Shown: in pieces, positions 22,756 to 60,444 of the stretch
Position numbering within the stretch: the first letter of the stretch is position 1
How the letters are laid out: every line of letters begins with the position of its first letter
Origin: Paracoccus sp. MBLB3053
Lineage (GTDB): Bacteria > Pseudomonadota > Alphaproteobacteria > Rhodobacterales > Rhodobacteraceae
Direction of reading: 5' to 3'
Assembly: GCF_031822435.1 (NCBI RefSeq)
Contig: NZ_JAVQLW010000001.1
Span: 2,737,501-2,801,500, forward strand
Length of the DNA stretch: 64,000 bases
Notes under the pieces: model-generated
Seen by the model: only the letters and a program-made list of their open reading frames with translations
What the model was told of the DNA's origin: nothing
Databases searched by the model: none
Position numbers and translations under genes: made by a program

Positions 22756-24123
22756 ATGGACGCGACGGGCCAGATCGGCGCGATGCGCAAGGCCAGGCAG
22801 GCCTTGCCGCCGCGAAACATGTCACTGAGCACCATCGCGCTTGGCGGTTCTGCCATCGCATGGAGCGCGGTGTTCGTCATCATCCTTGCGGTGGTGCTGT
22901 GGAACGCGCGCGACTCGGTTCGAAACGAAACGCAATCCGCATTCCAGATGGCGACGGCCGCGGCGACGCTGCGCCTGCCGACAGCCTTCGATCGCAAGGA
23001 CATGATGGCCGAGGCGGTGAAGCTCGCGGTCGAACTGCGCAGCCAGCGTCACGTCACGGCCGAATTGAGGGACCGCAGCGGCAAGACCATTGAACTGCCA
23101 ACGCCCCCCTCACCCGCCCATCCTGCGCCGCAATGGTTTTCGAACCTGCTGCGCCCCGATCAGTTGCAGGACGTCATCACGATCACCCAATATCCCAATG
23201 TCGAGGGCTTGCTGGAAATCCGGACCGATCCGGCCGACGAGATCGCCGAGGTTTGGCGCGACCTGAGCGTCCTTGTGCCGCTGCTGTTTCTGACTGCCCT
23301 GGCGGCAATCGGGACCACCTTGGCGGTGAGCAGCCTCGTGTCGCGCAGGCTCGAGGCCCTGCATAATGTCCTGGGGCACATGCGCGAGGGCGATCTGGAG
23401 CAGCGCGCGCCGCGTTCCGGCCTGGCCGAACTGGATTCGCTTGGCGAAGGGATCGGGGCACTGGCCTCGCATCTCGCGCTGGAACGGGGTGAGAACCGTC
23501 GTCTGCAGGCGCGGATGATGACCCTTGCCGAGGCCGAACGTGCCCGCATCGCAAGCGATCTGCATGATGAGATGGGGCCGCAGCTTTTCGCCCTGCACGC
23601 AGCCGTGGGACAGGCCCGACGGCAGGGCGGGAGTCCCGAAATATCTGACAGTCTAGACGCCATCAGCCGCCATTCCGATGCCATCCGCAAATCGGCGCGC
23701 GCCGCGATCGACGACCTGCGCCTGACCCCGACTGACGGCGTCTCCCTCCCCGAGATGATCCAGGAGCTTGTCATCGAGTTCGAGGACATCGCGCCCGACA
23801 TCTGCTTCGCCTTCCAGTCGGATCAGGATCTGCCCGAACCGGATGAGGCAGGACGGATCGCGATCTTCCGCTTCGTGCGCGAGAGCGTGCTGAATGCCCT
23901 GCGGCATGCTGGCCCCGGTGCCCTCTGGATCGACCTTGCCCTTGACGGTGCCACGCTTCTGGCGCGGGTGTCGGATGACGGCGCCGGTCCCACACCACGT
24001 GACCGGCGCGGGCTGGGCCAGGCGGGAATGCGCGACCGCGCCCTGGCGCTTGGCGCCGAATGGACCGCCCCGCAGCGTCGGGACGGGCTCACGATTACCG
24101 AGTTCAGGATCTTGCTCACATGA
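22756..24123 (+). CDS. NarX/UhpB-type sensor histidine kinase (HisKA_3)
   Basis: 455 residues, preceded by a strong AGGAGGAG site. Two membrane helices (about residues 24-48 and 171-196) enclose a periplasmic sensor of about 120 residues, followed by a HAMP-like linker. The dimerisation domain has ERARIASDLHDEMGPQ with the phosphoacceptor His near residue 270, typical of HisKA_3 kinases that pair with NarL regulators. The ATPase domain shows the N box (VRESVLNALRHA) and a reduced G box (VSDDGAGP, then GLGQAGMRDR). Its stop overlaps the start of the response regulator. MoxY/FlhS of methylotrophs belong to the same broad class, but the ligand is unknown. Confidence 0.9.
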   Translation: MDATGQIGAMRKARQALPPRNMSLSTIALGGSAIAWSAVFVIILAVVLWNARDSVRNETQSAFQMATAAATLRLPTAFDRKDMMAEAVKLAVELRSQRHVTAELRDRSGKTIELPTPPSPAHPAPQWFSNLLRPDQLQDVITITQYPNVEGLLEIRTDPADEIAEVWRDLSVLVPLLFLTALAAIGTTLAVSSLVSRRLEALHNVLGHMREGDLEQRAPRSGLAELDSLGEGIGALASHLALERGENRRLQARMMTLAEAERARIASDLHDEMGPQLFALHAAVGQARRQGGSPEISDSLDAISRHSDAIRKSARAAIDDLRLTPTDGVSLPEMIQELVIEFEDIAPDICFAFQSDQDLPEPDEAGRIAIFRFVRESVLNALRHAGPGALWIDLALDGATLLARVSDDGAGPTPRDRRGLGQAGMRDRALALGAEWTAPQRRDGLTITEFRILLT

Positions 24124-24794
24124 CCATGCCCCTCGCCAAAGCAACCCCCGTGGCGCTTCGCGTCCTGATCATCGACGACCATCCGGTCGTAGCCGAGGGG
24201 TGGGACCGCATCACGCGCGGGCGGATCGATTGCGAAGTCAGCGCGGCCTCGGGCCCATGCGAAGGCTTTCGCGCATGGCGGCGCGAAGCGCCTGACGTGA
24301 TCGTCATCGACCTGACGATGGGCGAAAGGAAGCTGGCCGGACTGCGCCTGATCGAGCGGCTGCGCGCGGCGGGGGCCAAGGTGCCGATCCTTGTCTTCAC
24401 CATGCATCGCAGCCCGATCATTGCCCGCCGCGCATTGCAGGCCGGCTGCAACGGGATCATCATGAAGGACTTTCCTTCGGATGAAATCTGTCAGGCCCTG
24501 ATCGAAGTCGCGGCGGGCAAGGACCATGTTCCCTCCGACCTCGCCCGCAAGATCGCGCTCCTTGAACGGCCCGGAGCCATGGCCGCGCCACGTCTCACCC
24601 CGCGCGAAATGGACATCCTGCGCGCCATCTCCGAAGGGCTGTCCTATCGCGAGATCGCCGAGCGGGTCGGGATCAGCTACAAGACCGTCACCAATGTCAG
24701 CCAGACGCTGAAGGACAAGCTTGGCGCGTCAAGCTTTGCCGATCTGGTCGTCAAGGCGATCCGACATCTGGAGCAGACCGGGGACGCGGTCTGA
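24120..24794 (+). CDS. NarL/FixJ-family response regulator
   Basis: 224 residues. The receiver domain has the acidic pair in LIIDDHP, phosphoacceptor Asp64 (VIVIDLTMG), Thr/Ser switch residue in VFTMHRS and Lys in MKDFPS. The output domain is a LuxR-type HTH (LTPREMDILRAISEGLSY, then VGISYKTVTNV). ATG overlaps the kinase stop by 4 nt, so the pair is a cognate system. Only 3 nt separate it from the XRE-type regulator that follows, so it is probably one transcript with the next three genes. Confidence 0.93.
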   Translation: MTMPLAKATPVALRVLIIDDHPVVAEGWDRITRGRIDCEVSAASGPCEGFRAWRREAPDVIVIDLTMGERKLAGLRLIERLRAAGAKVPILVFTMHRSPIIARRALQAGCNGIIMKDFPSDEICQALIEVAAGKDHVPSDLARKIALLERPGAMAAPRLTPREMDILRAISEGLSYREIAERVGISYKTVTNVSQTLKDKLGASSFADLVVKAIRHLEQTGDAV

Positions 24795-24797
24795 CCC

Positions 24798-26102
24798 ATG
24801 CCCCGATTGCCGAACGAAGTCGCGACCAGGCCCGGACAAGCCACCAGAACAGTGGCCAAGCGGCCCCTGATCGGCACCCGGATCCGAGAGCGCAGGCTCT
24901 TGCTCGGATGTCGGCAGATCGAGGTCGCCCAGCGCGCGAAGATTTCGGCGGCCTATCTCAACCTCATCGAACACAATCGCCGGCCGGTCGGCGAGGCCCT
25001 GCTTGGCCGGCTTGCCGCGGCGCTTGAAATCGACGCGGCCGAACTTGCCTCGGACCGGGAAGAATCGCTCATGTCCGGGCTGCGAGAGGCCGCAGCCCTC
25101 GCCGACCGCCAGAACCTGCCGATCGAGCTTGACCAGATAGCCGAATTCGCGGCGCGCTTTCCGGGCTGGGCGAGTTCCCTTTCCTTTGCCGTGCGCAGGG
25201 CTGATGCCCTTGAACGACGTCTCGTGGCCCTGTCCGACCGGATGACCCGCGACCCATATCTTCTGACCACGCTGCATGAAATCCAGTCGGCGGTGACCGT
25301 GGTGCGATCGACCGCATCTATCCTGGCCGAAACACCCGACATGGAACAGGACTGGCGCGACCGCTTTCACGCCAATCTTGAAACGGACAGCCAGCGCCTT
25401 TCGCGCACGGCACAATCTCTCGTGACCTATCTGGACAGCTTCGAGGACGAGGCCGTGCCGATGTCGCCCCAGGAAGAGGTCGAAAGCTGGGTCGAGGCCG
25501 GCCAGCCAGAGCCCGCCGACGGGCATCTTGCCTCGGACGCGGCACGCGCGCTCGCCCGCTCGGTCCTTGCCATGCAGGAACAGGATCGGGCGCTGCTTTC
25601 CGATGCAGACCTTTCGGCCGCAGTCGAGGCAGGTCATGGCAGCGACCCGGCGGCACTGGCCCAGCAGATCGGGCGACCCCTTGAGCTTGTGCTGCGACGC
25701 CTGGGCAACCTGCGTCCCGGAGAATGGGCGCGCGCGGGACTTGTCATCTGCGATGGTTCTGGCGCCACGCTGTTTCGTCATGCGGCGCCGGGATTTCCGC
25801 TTCCGCGCCCGGGCGAAGGATGCGCGCTTTGGCCGCTTTTCGAGGCCTTGGTGCAGCCCCAACTTCCCGTCGTGCGGATGATCGAAACCCCTGATGGCGC
25901 GCGCTTCATGGCCTGGGCCGTGTCCGAACGCCTTCTGCCGATGGGCTTCGACGGGCCGCCCCTGAGCCGGGCGCAGATGCTGATCCTGCCCGCGCCTCAG
26001 GGCGAGAACAGGGCCACGCTCGCCGTGGGCCCGGCCTGCCGGATCTGTCCGCGCAACGCATGCCCTGCCCGGCACGAACCCTCGATCCTGGGGCCGGCAT
26101 GA
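24798..26102 (+). CDS. XRE-family regulator with ScfR-like C-terminus and a DHp-like middle domain
   Basis: 434 residues. Residues about 25-80 are an XRE helix-turn-helix (RQIEVAQRAKISAAYLNLIE). The C-terminus ends with GPACRICPRNACPARHE, a Cys motif shared with the ScfR/RamB protein at 59,050. Residues about 155-215 align by eye with histidine-kinase dimerisation domains: LLTTLHEIQSAVTVVRSTAS corresponds to an H-box with His160-Glu161, and RFHANLETDSQRLSRTAQSL to the second helix. No ATPase domain is present. This suggests a phosphotransfer-capable or kinase-binding transcription factor. Its stop overlaps the next start by 4 nt. Confidence 0.75.
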   Translation: MPRLPNEVATRPGQATRTVAKRPLIGTRIRERRLLLGCRQIEVAQRAKISAAYLNLIEHNRRPVGEALLGRLAAALEIDAAELASDREESLMSGLREAAALADRQNLPIELDQIAEFAARFPGWASSLSFAVRRADALERRLVALSDRMTRDPYLLTTLHEIQSAVTVVRSTASILAETPDMEQDWRDRFHANLETDSQRLSRTAQSLVTYLDSFEDEAVPMSPQEEVESWVEAGQPEPADGHLASDAARALARSVLAMQEQDRALLSDADLSAAVEAGHGSDPAALAQQIGRPLELVLRRLGNLRPGEWARAGLVICDGSGATLFRHAAPGFPLPRPGEGCALWPLFEALVQPQLPVVRMIETPDGARFMAWAVSERLLPMGFDGPPLSRAQMLILPAPQGENRATLAVGPACRICPRNACPARHEPSILGPA

Positions 26103-26356
26103 AATTGCGAACCCGCCGCCTGTTCCTTGGTCGCGAAGGGTATCATCGCCGTCGCATGATCGACGCAACGCGGATCATGCCCGTCGTTTTCGCCATCTTC
26201 GTCCTGCTTCCCCCGGTCTGGCTGCCCCAGAAATTCAGCTTTGCGACGGGAACGGTCTGGTTGGCGCTGGGCTGGCTTGCGACGATCGCGCTCACGGCCG
26301 CGCTGCATCGCGCCATCGGACCCATCCGCCCGGCCGAGGAAGACGATGACACCTGA
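26099..26356 (+). CDS. Small two-helix membrane protein partnered with the SSF kinase
   Basis: About 85 residues from ATG 26099, which overlaps the preceding stop (ATGA). It has a basic N-terminus, two membrane helices (IMPVVFAIFVLLPPVWL and VWLALGWLATIALTAAL) and an acidic tail. Its end overlaps the start of the SSF-kinase by 11 nt. Small two-helix subunits accompany several sodium:solute symporters (for example DUF485 or DUF4212 proteins); I see no sequence match to those, but size, topology and coupling suggest a similar accessory role. Alternative starts at 26156 or 26177 would shorten the N-terminus. Confidence 0.65.
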   Translation: MKLRTRRLFLGREGYHRRRMIDATRIMPVVFAIFVLLPPVWLPQKFSFATGTVWLALGWLATIALTAALHRAIGPIRPAEEDDDT

Positions 26357-29021
26357 AACGCTTAGCGCGGCAGCGGTTCTCTATGTCGGCTTCATGTTTC
26401 TTCTGGCACATGCGGCAGACCGTGCGGCCGCCGCGGGACGCTGGAAGTGGATGAACCAGCCGATCATCTATACCCTGTCTCTGTCAGTCTATTGCTCGGC
26501 ATGGACCTTTTATGGCGCCGTGGGCTATGCGAGCCGTTCGGGGCTTGAATTCCTCACCATCTATCTTGGTCCCGGCATCGTCTTTGCCGGAGCATGGTGG
26601 GGCGTGCGCCATCTTGTCCGGGTCGCGCGCATGCATCGCGTCACCTCGGTTGCGGATCTGATTTCCAGCCGTTTCGGAAAATCGGCAAGCCTTGCCGCTC
26701 TGGTCACCCTGATCGCGGTGACGGCGGCAACGCCGTATATTGCCTTGCAACTGCAATCGGTCTCGATGGCGCTGACCGCTTTCGCCGAGGCGGGACAGCC
26801 CCTTCCCGGCAGCGTGCCCTTCTGGACGGCAATGGGCCTGGGCGCTTTCACCATCCTTTTCGGCACGCGCAACCTGGCTGCGGATGAACGCCATCACGGC
26901 GTCGTCATGGCCATTGCGCTAGAGGCCATCGTCAAGCTCGCTGCCTTCATCGCGGTCGGCACCTATGTGTTGTGGGGGCTGGCGGATGGGCCGGCGGATA
27001 TTCTCGCGCGGATCGAGCGGATGGCAAGCCAGCCCGAGGGCACGGGCTGGACGATCAAGCCGGACCGCTGGATCGTCCTCATCACGCTGTCGGGCGCGGC
27101 CGTTCTCGTGCTGCCCCGCATGTTCCAGGTGCTCGTCGTCGAGGCCCATGACGAAGACCGCCTGCGCCAGGCCGGCTGGGCATTTCCGCTGTATCTCTTC
27201 ATCCTTTCGTTTCTCGTCCTGCCGATCGCGGTCATCGGGGACGAGTTGCTGCCGGCGGGATCGAACCCGGACCTGCACGTTCTTGCCCTGCCCCTGTCGC
27301 AGGGCAAGGACAAGCTTGCGGCATTCGCCTTCATCGGCGGGTTTTCATCGGCCATGTCCATGGTCGTCGTCAGTGCCATCGCGCTTTCGACGATGATGGC
27401 GAACCATTGGCTCGTGCCATTCTGGCTGTGGCTCAGACATGGCGGTTTCAGGGCCAAACCCCTGCCCGGCGCCACGCGCGAGGATCTGAGGGTGCTGATG
27501 CTGAACGCCCGCCGCCTTGCCATCCTGTGCATTCTTGCCGCGGGCTGGGCCTATCACCGGATGTCGGGCGGAACATCGGCGCTTGCCGTGATGGGGATCG
27601 TCGCCTTTTCGGGAATGGCGCAGGTGCTGCCCGCGATGACGGCCGGGCTGTTCTGGCGCGGCGCGACAAGGCGGGGGGCGATCGCGGGCATTTCCGCCGG
27701 CTCGCTGATCTGGTTGTGCATGATCTTCCTGCCCTCGCTCGGCCTGCTGCCCCATCCGGTCATCTCGATCGGGATAGATCCCTTCGCCGGAACCGTTCTG
27801 CTGGCGCTGACGGTCAATGTCGCTCTGCTGACGCTTGTCTCCCTGTTCGATTTTCCCCACCCGGTCGAAAGAATGCAGGCGCTTTCCTTCGTCCATGCAG
27901 TTTCGCCCGACAGCACGCCGCGAAACTCGACGGATGATGCCGGCTCCGAGGCCCTGCTTGCGCTGGCCGGGCGGCTCTGGGGCAGCGACCGCGCGCTTGA
28001 GGATTTCCAGAACGCGGCGGCCCTGCAGGGGAAATCGGGCTATCTGCCGGATCTGACCCCTCGTTTCCTGTCGGATTTCGAACGCCAGCTTGCCGGCACG
28101 GTCGGCGCGGCTACGGCCGGTGCGCTGATGTCCCGGGTCGCCGGGCACGGCAATATCACAGTGGCGGATCTGATGGATGTGGCCGGTGAGGCCAGCAGGG
28201 CAAGGGCAGACAACCTGCGCCTTGAAAACGCGACCGAAGAACTGGAACGCGCCGCACGCAAGCTGCGGGAGGCGAATGAGAAGCTGACTGTCCTGTCGCA
28301 GCAGAAAGACGCCTTCCTGGCGCAGATCAGCCATGAATTGCGCACCCCCATGACCTCGATCCGCGCATTTTCCGAGTTTTTGCGCGAACCCGACCTGCCG
28401 CAGCAGGAACGCGACCGCTTCGCCAGCATCATCCATGACGAGGCCGGCCGCCTGACCCGGCTGATCGACGACCTGCTCGACCTTGCCTTGCTTGAAGGTG
28501 GACGGGCAAAGATCTCGCCGACAGTCGTCAACCTGCACGATCTGATCGATCGGGCGCTGGCCTCGGCCCGCGCCTCGGGCGGGGCGCGGGATTTCACCAT
28601 CCTGCGCGATCCTCCGGCGGAGCATCTCATGGTGATCACCGATGCCGACCGATTGCTTCAGGTTCTGATCAACGTGCTTGCGAATGCCCGGAAATACTGT
28701 GCCGCCGCACGGCCCGAGATCCGCATCGAAACGAAGCGCATGCGGGACGGCACGGCCGAGATCGTGATCAGCGACAATGGCAGTGGCATCCCGCCAGAAC
28801 AGGCCGCGCTGATCTTCGAGAAATTCGCGCGGCTCGACGACAATTCCCGTGCCGGCGGGGCCGGTCTCGGGCTCGCCATCTCGCGCGAGATCATGCAGGC
28901 CCTTGACGGCTCGATCAGCTACCTGCCCGGCCAGGGCGGCGCGGCCTTTCGCATTCTTTTGCCCAGAAGGCCGCATCAGGTGGGCGATGGCGATCCCGCC
29001 AGGCAAGCGGCTTCGGGCTAA
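26346..29021 (+). CDS. SSF transporter-histidine kinase fusion (CbrA/CrbS-like)
   Basis: 891 residues from ATG 26346. The first 500 or so residues are a sodium:solute-symporter fold with many membrane helices (for example YCSAWTFYGAVGYASRSG and FIGGFSSAMSMVVVSAIALS). After a linker and coiled coil comes a HisKA domain with His near residue 662 in QISHELRTPM, then an ATPase domain with N box (INVLANARKYC), G1 (ISDNGSGIP) and G2 (GGAGLGLAI). In gamma-proteobacteria CbrA senses histidine and CrbS controls acetate use. No dedicated regulator follows, so the NarL-type regulator or the DHp-bearing XRE protein upstream are candidate partners. Confidence 0.9.
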   Translation: MTPETLSAAAVLYVGFMFLLAHAADRAAAAGRWKWMNQPIIYTLSLSVYCSAWTFYGAVGYASRSGLEFLTIYLGPGIVFAGAWWGVRHLVRVARMHRVTSVADLISSRFGKSASLAALVTLIAVTAATPYIALQLQSVSMALTAFAEAGQPLPGSVPFWTAMGLGAFTILFGTRNLAADERHHGVVMAIALEAIVKLAAFIAVGTYVLWGLADGPADILARIERMASQPEGTGWTIKPDRWIVLITLSGAAVLVLPRMFQVLVVEAHDEDRLRQAGWAFPLYLFILSFLVLPIAVIGDELLPAGSNPDLHVLALPLSQGKDKLAAFAFIGGFSSAMSMVVVSAIALSTMMANHWLVPFWLWLRHGGFRAKPLPGATREDLRVLMLNARRLAILCILAAGWAYHRMSGGTSALAVMGIVAFSGMAQVLPAMTAGLFWRGATRRGAIAGISAGSLIWLCMIFLPSLGLLPHPVISIGIDPFAGTVLLALTVNVALLTLVSLFDFPHPVERMQALSFVHAVSPDSTPRNSTDDAGSEALLALAGRLWGSDRALEDFQNAAALQGKSGYLPDLTPRFLSDFERQLAGTVGAATAGALMSRVAGHGNITVADLMDVAGEASRARADNLRLENATEELERAARKLREANEKLTVLSQQKDAFLAQISHELRTPMTSIRAFSEFLREPDLPQQERDRFASIIHDEAGRLTRLIDDLLDLALLEGGRAKISPTVVNLHDLIDRALASARASGGARDFTILRDPPAEHLMVITDADRLLQVLINVLANARKYCAAARPEIRIETKRMRDGTAEIVISDNGSGIPPEQAALIFEKFARLDDNSRAGGAGLGLAISREIMQALDGSISYLPGQGGAAFRILLPRRPHQVGDGDPARQAASG

Positions 29022-29078: not shown

Positions 29079-30200
29079 ATGATGGACAAGACAGGTGCGG
29101 CGCAATCCAACGGCGAGGGGAACGGGAACCGCATTGCCGTCCTGCGCCGCCTGATTGCCGAACGCGCGAGGGCGCGCGGCCTGTCTCTCGCCCAGGGGCA
29201 GGATCGTCTCGAAATACCGGTCGATCGGGCCGCGGCCATGGCACTTGGCCGGGCAGCCGAAAAGCAGCATCGCCTTGCCGTCTTTGTCGAAAAGGTCACG
29301 GAAGGTCAGACATCCCTTTCGGAAATCGCCGAGCTTCTGCCCGAACAGGCCCTGCTGGCCGTGGTCGAGGGCGGCCCCGACCAGCTTGGCGTCGTGGCCC
29401 TTTGTCCCGCCTTCCTCGCCTCGGTGATCGAAATGCAGGCGCTTGGGCGGGTCACGTCGCGACAGGCTCAGCCACGCCGCCCGACCCGTACGGATGCCGC
29501 GATCTCGGCCGAATTCGTGAACGGCCTTCTCGCGGAACTGGGGCGCGAATTCGCGCTGAGCGCAGAGATGCCCGGCTTTGCCGCATTCCGATATGCGACC
29601 TATCTCGACGATGCCCGTCCGCTTGGCCTGATGCTGGAGGACGGGCCGATGTATCGGCTTTCGCTAAGCTTCCGCATCGGAAGCGGTGGCCAGCGGGACG
29701 GACAGATCCTGGTCGCCCTGCCGACTCGCCTTGCCGAGGATGCGCCTTCCGCGCGGCGGAACGACCATGCCCAGATCCAGGCATTGCCGCCCTTACCGCA
29801 AGCGATCCGGACGTCTCTTGCGGGAGCGGTCCAGAAAGCACCGGTCCAACTGCGCGGCATTCTCTGCAGGCGCAAGGTAAGCCTGCAGGCCCTCAGGGGA
29901 ATGAAGTCGGGAACGCTCATCCCGCTGCCCCCGAACGCGCTGAACGACGCCCGCGTCGAGACCGCCGGAGGTCAGTTGCTTGCCCGCGGCAGGCTGGGAG
30001 AAATCGACGGGTTCCACGCCATCCGGCTGCAAGCCGGTTGCGACGAGCAGTCCTCTCCCGAGGCCACGTCAACGACCACGCGGCTGATCCAGGAAACGGC
30101 TGCGCCCGAAAACCGCTCTTCTGGCCTTGATCTCGACCGGGCCGACCCCGTCGAATCCTCGACGGCGCAGGACTTCGGCGATTTGCGCGCCGCGCGCTGA
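29079..30200 (+). CDS. FliM/FliN-type (SpoA domain) flagellar motor switch-like protein
   Basis: 373 residues; ATG codons at 29079 and 29082 are both possible. The N-terminal two thirds are divergent and only loosely like the FliM middle domain. The segment from about residue 245 (AGAVQKAPVQLRGILCRRKV, then LRGMKSGTLIPLP, then VETAGGQLLARGRLGEIDG) is a SpoA/FliMN_C domain, which forms the C-ring of the flagellar motor. A variable acidic tail of about 45 residues follows. No other flagellar gene is adjacent, although fliG lies 22 kb away. It may be the lineage's dispersed FliM. Confidence 0.75.
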   Translation: MMDKTGAAQSNGEGNGNRIAVLRRLIAERARARGLSLAQGQDRLEIPVDRAAAMALGRAAEKQHRLAVFVEKVTEGQTSLSEIAELLPEQALLAVVEGGPDQLGVVALCPAFLASVIEMQALGRVTSRQAQPRRPTRTDAAISAEFVNGLLAELGREFALSAEMPGFAAFRYATYLDDARPLGLMLEDGPMYRLSLSFRIGSGGQRDGQILVALPTRLAEDAPSARRNDHAQIQALPPLPQAIRTSLAGAVQKAPVQLRGILCRRKVSLQALRGMKSGTLIPLPPNALNDARVETAGGQLLARGRLGEIDGFHAIRLQAGCDEQSSPEATSTTTRLIQETAAPENRSSGLDLDRADPVESSTAQDFGDLRAAR

Positions 30201-59004: not shown

Positions 59005-59033
59005 TTTGCAAACCGTATGACTCGATTTGCAAA
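59005..59033. promoter_or_regulatory. Paired TTTGCAAA boxes ahead of the ScfR/RamB gene
   Basis: TTTGCAAA occurs at 59005-59012 and 59026-59033, 21 bp apart (two helical turns), with mirrored flanks CTTTGCAAA and TTTGCAAAG. RamB of actinobacteria recognises a TTTGCAAA core, and this box sits 17-37 bp before a RamB-type gene, which suggests autoregulation. Confidence 0.65.
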
Positions 59034-59049
59034 GGGGGAGGAGCCAGGG

Positions 59050-60444
59050 ATGGCCATGCAGAAGATCTACGCCGGGGCCTCCTTGCGCGAAACCCGCGGT
59101 CGCGCCGGATTGACGCAGCGGGCCTTCGCAGACCGCCTTGGCATTTCGCTGCCCTACCTGTCGCAGATGGAGAACAACCACCGTCCCGTCTCGGCCGGGG
59201 TGCTGTTGCGATTGGCTTCGGAATTCTCGCTTGATCTTGGCGCAATGGCCGCCGGGGATTCTGAACGCATGGTGATGGACATGGCCGAAGCCCTCGCCGA
59301 CCCGCTGTTCGATTCGCCCCCGCCCCGCGCCGATCTGCGTCTTGCCGCCACCAATGCCCCGGCGCTCGCGCGGGCTTTTCTTGATCTGTATCGAGCGCAT
59401 CGAGACGGGCAGGAACGTCTTGCCGCGCTGGACGAGGTCATCGGAGCCGGGGTCCAGAATACAACACCCTCGCCTTGGGAAGAGGTTCGCGACTTCTTTC
59501 ACTATTGCGACAACTATATCGACGCCGTCGATCGCGCAGCCGAGCAATTCGACCGCAACCACCCCCAGCCGACGCCTCTTGCCCGCGCCATTTCTGCACT
59601 GAGCGATATCGGGGTTCAGGTCGAAATGGCTGAACTGGGAAGTGGGCCGGTCTACCTGCGCAACGATCGCCGCATCACGCTGAATGCCGCGGCCGAGCCA
59701 TCGACCCAGGCCTTTCAGCTCCTTCATCTGTTCGCCCTCGAAAGCCGCGCCGAGCTGATAGAAGCCACGCTTGAACTGGCCCGCTTTCGCAGCGGCAGCG
59801 CCCGGGATATCGCACGGCTCGGGCTTGCGAACTATTTTGCCGGCGCCGCGATGATGCCATATGGGCGTTTTCTTCGGGCAGCCGGCCGCGAGCGCCACGA
59901 TCTTGAACGGCTGGCGCATCTTTTCGATGCCTCGCTCGAACAGGTGGCGCATCGCCTTTCGACCCTGCAGCGCAGCGGCGATCGGGGCGTGCCGTTTTTC
60001 TTCGTCCGCGTCGATCAGGCTGGCACGATCACCAAGCGGCACTCCGCGACGCGGCTGCAATTCGCACGCTTCGGCGGCGCCTGCCCGCTTTGGAACGTGC
60101 ACCAGGCATTCGAAACACCGGGCCGATTCCTCCGCCAATTGGCCGAGACGCCGGACGGCAAGCGCTACCTGCTTTTGGCGCGGGATGTCACGAAATCATC
60201 AGGGGCATTTGGCGCGCCGATCCGTCGTTTCGCCATCGGCCTCGGCTGCGAAATCACCCATGCGCGGGAACTCGTCTATGCTGATGGACTGGATCATGGG
60301 AACCCCCAGATCTTCGAGCCCATCGGAATCTCTTGCCGGATCTGCCCGCGACCGAACTGCCATCAGCGATCGGTTCCGCCGCTGGACCGCCCGATCCGGG
60401 TCCCGAAGGACCGGCCCGGCCCGCTCCCATACGAATTTTCGTGA
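59050..60444 (+). CDS. RamB/ScfR-family XRE transcriptional regulator
   Basis: 464 residues from ATG 59050, preceded by a purine-rich GGGGGAGGAG site. Residues about 10-65 are an XRE HTH (LTQRAFADRLGISLPYLSQM). The middle is an ImmA/IrrE-like peptidase fold in which HExxH is degenerate (QLLHLFALESRAELIE), so it is probably an inactive ligand-sensing domain. The C-terminus has the signature ISCRICPRPNCHQRS of the DUF2083 part. Such proteins control acetate, propionate and glyoxylate metabolism through acyl-CoA-type effectors; in Paracoccus a RamB homologue regulates ethylmalonyl-CoA genes. It has no metabolic neighbours here. Confidence 0.88.
   Translation: MAMQKIYAGASLRETRGRAGLTQRAFADRLGISLPYLSQMENNHRPVSAGVLLRLASEFSLDLGAMAAGDSERMVMDMAEALADPLFDSPPPRADLRLAATNAPALARAFLDLYRAHRDGQERLAALDEVIGAGVQNTTPSPWEEVRDFFHYCDNYIDAVDRAAEQFDRNHPQPTPLARAISALSDIGVQVEMAELGSGPVYLRNDRRITLNAAAEPSTQAFQLLHLFALESRAELIEATLELARFRSGSARDIARLGLANYFAGAAMMPYGRFLRAAGRERHDLERLAHLFDASLEQVAHRLSTLQRSGDRGVPFFFVRVDQAGTITKRHSATRLQFARFGGACPLWNVHQAFETPGRFLRQLAETPDGKRYLLLARDVTKSSGAFGAPIRRFAIGLGCEITHARELVYADGLDHGNPQIFEPIGISCRICPRPNCHQRSVPPLDRPIRVPKDRPGPLPYEFS

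Follow-up and report, generated by a model that had tools for sequence, protein, structure and literature searches.

Can a DNA-binding protein carry the phosphoacceptor domain of a histidine kinase and, if so, which partner would supply the phosphate? The question is raised by a locus of Paracoccus sp. MBLB3053, found in the 64,000-nucleotide stretch of DNA that we analysed as a whole and call the window. There, a gene for an XRE transcription factor shares an operon with a gene for an SSF-type sensor kinase. An initial annotation, made from the sequence alone, had noted that positions 25260-25442 resemble the phosphoacceptor helices of that kinase, and had proposed that the regulator could receive phosphate from a kinase or heterodimerise with one. 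The segment does correspond to residues 155-215 of the 24798-26102 open reading frame. The regulator gene and its parts are as follows.

24798..26102, + strand: ScfR/IsaR-type XRE transcription factor with an embedded DHp, as classified by its domains (434-aa ORF)
24882..25046, + strand: HTH_3 DNA-binding domain (residues 29-83, above the Pfam cut-off)
25056..25247, + strand: helical linker common to RamB (residues about 87-150)
25248..25448, + strand: DHp (HisKA-like) helix pair (residues 151-217), from profile, BLASTP and structure prediction
25275..25277, + strand: codon of His160, putative phosphoacceptor, from conservation across the family
25278..25280, + strand: codon of Glu161, unconstrained in the family (204 of 235 rows, 21 changes on the tree)
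25743..26087, + strand: ScfRs C-terminal domain (residues 316-430, above the Pfam cut-off)

A DHp domain within an ScfR/IsaR-type regulator

Judged by its HTH_3 domain, its ScfRs domain and a C-x2-C-x4-C motif, the window protein is an ScfR/IsaR-type regulator. Together with a helical linker, these elements are shared with the known factors PrpR, RamB and PccR. The motif (Cys414, 417 and 422, within the ScfRs domain), which was defined for IsaR and described for PrpR (PMC6765138), is complete in all 228 family rows that reach that far, the remaining 7 of the 235 rows being gapped. The NCBIfam RamB model covers residues 25-151, and AlphaFold2 predicts linker helices at 87-104, 111-120 and 122-151. 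Two features set the window's family apart from the known factors: a DHp insert of about 70 residues and, in its Rhodobacterales form, the absence of a detectable M78/IrrE-like domain, for which neither the window regulator nor the 35 close relatives scanned gave a match. Among the best 120 relatives listed, those bearing a name are all Paracoccus.

Three lines of comparison, namely BLASTP, hhalign and whole-genome profiles, identify residues 151-217 as a DHp, in agreement with the helix pair first proposed. In a single BLASTP comparison with the window's SSF-kinase, 70 aa of the regulator align at 30% identity (E 1e-5) and His160-Glu161 falls on the His-Glu of the kinase, so that the two residues are indeed in register. 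Alignment by hhalign of 33 regulator DHp sequences (set A3) with the kinase (probability 89.9, E 1.7e-6) extends across both helices, with LETDSQRLSRTAQSLV aligned on IHDEAGRLTRLIDDLL in the second, which bears out the second-helix match noted earlier. The lack of an ATPase domain was likewise borne out, no HATPase model matching the window regulator even at E <= 10.

The relationship is specific to the neighbouring kinase. Whole-genome searches, which score first-pass candidates only, were run in 12 genomes with a profile of DHp plus linker (A2; 38 sequences, 116 columns) and with the DHp-only profile A3; like the set A1 of 35 out of 120 proteins, both are hand-chosen, here from among the collected loci. 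The A2 profile recovered the regulator in 12 of 12 genomes and one further clear match in 11 (E 3.8e-9 to 4.9e-5, the next best being 0.535), and in 11 genomes A3 found a sole non-self match below E 0.01 (5.1e-7 to 2.3e-3), with 0.089 for the next best after this kinase frame. The further match lies about 3-4 kb away as a frame 900-1023 aa long, and in the window it is the SSF-kinase. The exception is genome G245, where the profile did not match the SSF-kinase located about 8 kb from the regulator. Pfam HisKA (PF00512) matches neither the window regulator (E <= 10) nor any of the 35 close relatives; the NCBIfam CreC kinase model matches all 35, at best with 1.4e-6. On these alignments, residues 151-217 are a DHp without an ATPase domain, homologous to the DHp of the SSF-kinase. 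Because the regulator DHp resembles that of its neighbour and not those of kinases generally, a domain duplication inside the cluster is suggested, and descent as a copy of the kinase DHp would be the simplest reading of its origin.

Structure prediction is consistent with this assignment. AlphaFold2 gives the expected two-helix hairpin (helices 153-178 and 184-217), and the segment alone is likewise predicted as a hairpin, a fold match that by itself cannot tell a DHp from other helical hairpins. The helix face that bears the histidine is the more conserved one (mean entropy 0.54 versus 1.37 bits, with face positions picked by hand).

Distribution of the domain and conservation of its histidine

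The same arrangement occurs well beyond Paracoccus. In a survey of 337 alphaproteobacterial genomes, where at most 13 first-pass candidates were scored per genome and counts are thus lower bounds, A2 found matches in at least 48 (E <= 1e-6). By frame length, at least 40 of these 48 hold the regulator and eight hold another frame only, mostly kinase-sized; the regulator-bearing genomes comprise at least 5 in the window's family and at least 35 in 19 other family codes. We retrieved 34 of the 35 regulators from outside (L300-L333; G555 was left out), plus six other matches. These regulators are open frames of 484-599 aa, except for one cut at a contig end. Eight of them were scanned: Pfam HisKA scores above its cut-off of 26.9 bits in L326, L327, L328, L329 and L333 (31.9-38.7 bits), below it in L318 and L330, and is absent from L305, while M78, as in known ScfR/IsaR factors, and ScfRs are present in all eight. 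HTH, HisKA, M78 and ScfRs are thus combined in orthologues outside the order, the N-terminus of L333 being missing at a contig end. No HisKA match was found in L001, the canonical ScfR paralogue of the window genome.

The boundaries of the domain were delimited with family models. In the window protein, the match to the RamB model ends ahead of the DHp, at model position 129; it is taken up again behind the DHp at 138 in L326 and 135 in L329. In L327, the part after the DHp aligns strongly with PrpR (219-530 on chain 96-406) and the part before it weakly (69-149 on chain 11-90; 13.7 bits, i-Evalue 0.18), so the RamB model is the firmer basis for the insert junction. Since both alignments break around the DHp, it is an insert of about 70 residues.

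For conservation, identical proteins and the loci retrieved for their receiver or kinase (L168-L191) were dropped before counting, and the genome samples are draws, partly a hand-picked spread with one search aimed at weak matches. His160 is invariant in the 120 close relatives listed, window included, and 232 of 234 distinct proteins retain it, which makes 233 of 235 rows, the window protein being counted twice (as L004 and q). Both exceptions (L050, L275) carry Tyr, belong to one genus and have an intact receiver gene alongside. These two form a natural DHp variant with His-to-Tyr plus Glu-to-Asp next to an adjoining receiver.

Kinases of the HisKA type have the core motif H-E-x-x-T/N-P. The regulators keep its His and Ser/Thr, relax the Glu and replace Pro(H+5) by Ala, Thr, Ser and others. 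Glu161 occupies the position of the kinase general base; 31 of the 235 rows have Asp, Gln, Gly, Leu, Arg or Thr there instead. Ser/Thr occupies H+4 in 232 of the 235 rows, and the listed residues of 234 rows include no Pro at H+5. On a FastTree phylogeny of the 235 rows, built without the tested columns, His160 changed once, H+4 13 times and Glu161 21 times. Outside the order, His is found in 29 of 34 sequences, Glu at +1 in only 4, Thr/Ser/Asn at H+4 in all 34, and Pro at H+5 in none; the His is replaced by Gln in L323/L324 and by Phe in L330-L332, which brings to three the genera that have lost it. A fixed His beside a free Glu, with one change against 21, is the pattern expected if phosphate acceptance matters and autokinase activity does not, as in a phosphoacceptor that would no longer autophosphorylate.

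Receiver and kinase genes around the regulator

The genes adjoining the regulator, and the more distant paralogue, are listed below.

22756..24123, + strand: sensor kinase with HisKA_3 and LapD_MoxY_N, from domain matches
24132..24794, + strand: NarL/LuxR-type response regulator, directly upstream (Response_reg 80 bits, GerE 46.2 bits)
26099..26356, + strand: small hydrophobic protein (85 aa), its start overlapping the regulator stop
26346..29021, + strand: SLC5/SSF-type sensor histidine kinase (891 aa; HisKA 654-719, HATPase_c 766-875)
28305..28502, + strand: SSF-kinase DHp, related to the regulator insert (His codon 28332-28334)
about 59047-60441: canonical ScfR paralogue L001 (coordinates by arithmetic)

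Residues 34-509 of the SSF-kinase align with PDB chain 10ed_A, named 'histidine kinase', at E 5e-66; Pfam SSF has no match in the window kinase and lies above its cut-off in the relative L345 (24.0 versus 22.8 bits). An SSF transporter domain fused to HisKA and HATPase is also the layout of the SLC5/STAC kinases CbrA, CrbS and RpuS. The small hydrophobic protein has no Pfam match at E <= 0.1 in residues 1-74. Downstream of the kinase, a FliM/FliN C-terminal-like protein is encoded at 29079-30200, and homologues (24-59% identity) trail the kinase in many longer loci.

Comparison of loci revealed a component that the window lacks. Among 214 distinct loci of the wide set with at least 1.4 kb downstream, 200 have a gene for a stand-alone receiver (REC) downstream of the regulator, 194 of them with a kinase within the examined stretch. 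A homologue of the small protein is also present in 200 loci, and receiver, small protein and SSF-kinase occur together in 193. Four loci (the window, L057, L063 and L064) have small protein and kinase but no receiver, and ten have none of the three nearby. In the layouts inspected, the order is regulator, receiver, small protein, kinase. All 212 receiver sequences carry the catalytic residues Glu9, Asp10, Asp53 and Lys105, and the one receiver scanned contains Response_reg only, without an output domain; the pathway therefore needs an output protein.

Receiver and SSF-kinase also travel together where the regulator does not. They adjoin each other in genomes where the regulator sits elsewhere (G245, G286, G289, G141 and G295), as they do in L340-L345, six regions from outside the order. 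In nine of eleven genomes searched for the receiver, a match of 49-63% identity to the query lies far from the regulator; G161 and G177, the remaining two, are Tyr variants with the receiver beside the regulator. In P. thiocyanatus (L060, whose regulator is identical to that of L006), regulator and receiver have no adjacent SSF-kinase, and a more distant SSF-kinase (42%) is found elsewhere in the genome.

Loss of the histidine shows no uniform relation to this linkage. Outside the order, it affects none of 22 sequences with a receiver at most 1 kb downstream versus 5 of 12 without, which represent two independent losses only: the Gln variants L323/L324 have a receiver-kinase pair on other contigs, and the Phe variants L330-L332 have one about 7-11 kb from the regulator, L330 and L331 showing the receiver only within an examined stretch that ends there. 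The trend inside the order is opposite, with losses in 2 of 212 linked rows (one genus) versus none among the 14 unlinked loci that have room for a receiver. A covariation analysis of 212 DHp-receiver pairs (Neff 104) placed 0 interface pairs in the top 200, with 5.8 expected, in a test of low power because docking positions hardly vary.

The window's own clade has lost the linked receiver: no such gene is found in the window, P. yeei, P. limosus or P. ravus, all of which keep His160, and the loss maps to one event on the tree. This explains why the receiver escaped the initial annotation. In the window, the gap between regulator and kinase holds the small hydrophobic ORF only. With 44% identity to the receiver of P. 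versutus (E 4.4e-22), the best receiver match in the window genome is comparable to the extra single-domain receivers that P. denitrificans has in addition to its own copy of 95% identity. Outside the order, L313 likewise retains the His without having the receiver. Persistence of His160 in the window clade points either to a recent receiver loss or to another donor. The upstream NarL-type regulator may stand in as partner for some members of this clade; its own partner is probably the HisKA_3 kinase encoded just before it. As a general partner it was rejected, since the HisKA_3 and NarL-type pair lies beside the regulator in some Paracoccus loci only (tblastn E <= 1e-8). Osp, the receiver-like CckA inhibitor of R. 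sphaeroides, was ruled out as a different gene by its neighbours, as it lies downstream of a TetR-family gene (PMC9430884).

Proposed routes to and from the regulator

The hairpin, the near-invariant His and the absence of an ATPase domain uphold the part of the initial proposal that places a kinase-like DHp, a putative acceptor of phosphate, in the regulator. The donor is where it gives way: with the regulator followed by a receiver gene at 200 of 214 loci, phosphate would most plausibly arrive via the receiver Asp and not straight from the kinase. Heterodimerisation of regulator and kinase is possible in principle. We consider it rather likely that a phosphorelay runs from the SSF-kinase through the free receiver to His160, the phosphotransferase being the DNA-binding protein itself. 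The kinase would sense or move an external small carboxylate, autophosphorylate on its own DHp and hand the phosphate to the stand-alone receiver, which would dock on the related DHp surface of the regulator and exchange phosphate with His160. DNA binding may then change through an altered dimer or tetramer geometry. In regulators that retain the CoA-binding part, external substrate and internal acyl-CoA/Fe-S status would converge in one protein. In the window clade, the donor could be another receiver, either the adjacent NarL-type regulator or one encoded elsewhere, or the kinase itself.

Several observations speak against such a relay: the window clade lost its linked receiver yet keeps His160, and L313 shows the same combination; in the wide set, His losses do not track the loss of linkage; the His is lost in three genera, one with an intact receiver; no covariation signal links DHp and receiver; and the SSF-kinase of G245 is not matched by the profile. 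In a rival reading, the DHp would be a receiver-docking or receiver-phosphatase module, altering DNA binding without being phosphorylated and maybe speeding receiver dephosphorylation through the Ser/Thr at H+4. The conservation of that position inside and outside the order, and the hairpins that persist without His in three genera, agree with this idea; the phosphatase activity of EnvZ-type kinases, however, does not need the His, and here the His is held more strictly than H+4 (1 versus 13 changes), so we regard such a module as unlikely. Direct phosphorylation of His160 by the ATPase of the SSF-kinase, or mixed DHp dimers, would fit the specific relatedness of the two domains, and also the window clade and L313, where regulator, SSF-kinase and His remain in the absence of a linked receiver. 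This appears quite improbable given the receiver gene that follows the regulator in nearly all loci and the loss of kinase-substrate features, Glu(H+1) being free and Pro(H+5) almost entirely gone. Hairpins dimerise, and the His is gone in three genera, as would be seen if a former DHp were retained solely as a dimerisation element; a His kept in 232 of 234 proteins on the very face that is conserved, and linked receiver and kinase genes, make this highly improbable.

The phosphorelay that we favour can be set beside known systems. ChpT and Spo0B are DHp-type histidine phosphotransferases fed by a receiver, a use of the DHp that is proposed here for the regulator. The regulator differs in having no ATPase-like domain and in the fusion of its DHp to a DNA-binding protein, in place of onward transfer to a response regulator. 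A C-terminal REC makes hybrid kinases of RpuS and the S. fredii CrbS homologue, which have LuxR-family regulators (PMC9100948); in the present cluster a gene of its own encodes the REC, and an XRE factor is the candidate output. By this comparison, the present cluster looks like a split hybrid kinase, the next step of which may be the regulator DHp. In the P. denitrificans ScfR network, from the family of Carter and Alber 2015 as cited in PMC10370305, Pden_1785 is a member encoded in a cluster with a two-component system; the parts of that paper concerned then turn to other members and mention no DHp for it. Pden_1785 is probably the orthologue of the window regulator. Among the top-ranked matches of PMC full-text searches, neither biochemistry nor a description of a DHp in this regulator family was found, and within that scope we provisionally regard the DHp-bearing form as new.

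Upstream sequences offer a view of what the regulator may control. Sites of the TTTGTAAA/TTCTGTAAA type occur in 118 of 233 regulator upstream sequences (L004-L281) versus a mean of 4.5 in mononucleotide shuffles, the only control for a pattern that was written after the enriched words had been seen. Paired sites are most often 32 bp apart, a spacing that suggests self-regulation by a multimer. None lies near the window regulator, which directly follows the NarL-type gene. A divergent gene for a urea/branched-chain-type substrate-binding protein lies upstream in 44 of 88 long loci (for example L107:3238-8501 and L130), and a matching ABC ATPase gene, counted apart, also in 44 of 88; this divergent ABC transporter is a candidate target. 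The same loci include an acyl-CoA ligase in 9 cases and a PAS-LuxR protein in 5. The ScfR motif TTTGCAAA shows no overall enrichment in the window, with 13 matches at up to one mismatch versus 15.8 expected. Two exact sites, with starts 21 bp apart, are found at 59005-59033, just upstream of the canonical ScfR paralogue.

Outputs of two-component systems are normally receivers fused to effectors. Here, it is the donor-side domain that is fused to the effector, and its relative is found in the adjoining kinase. Whether this acyl-CoA/Fe-S type transcription factor acts as the histidine phosphotransferase in a His-Asp-His relay, fed by a split hybrid transporter-kinase that would report external substrate, is in our judgment an even question on present sequence comparisons. 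If true, this would constitute an output mode in which a DNA-binding protein carries the phospho-His and no receiver, in the window's family and in 19 further family codes of Alphaproteobacteria. With one His, one free receiver and one kinase, the system provides a specific test of phospho-His driving transcription directly, and suggests how a conserved alphaproteobacterial gene cluster could join the sensing of outside substrates to internal acyl-CoA status.
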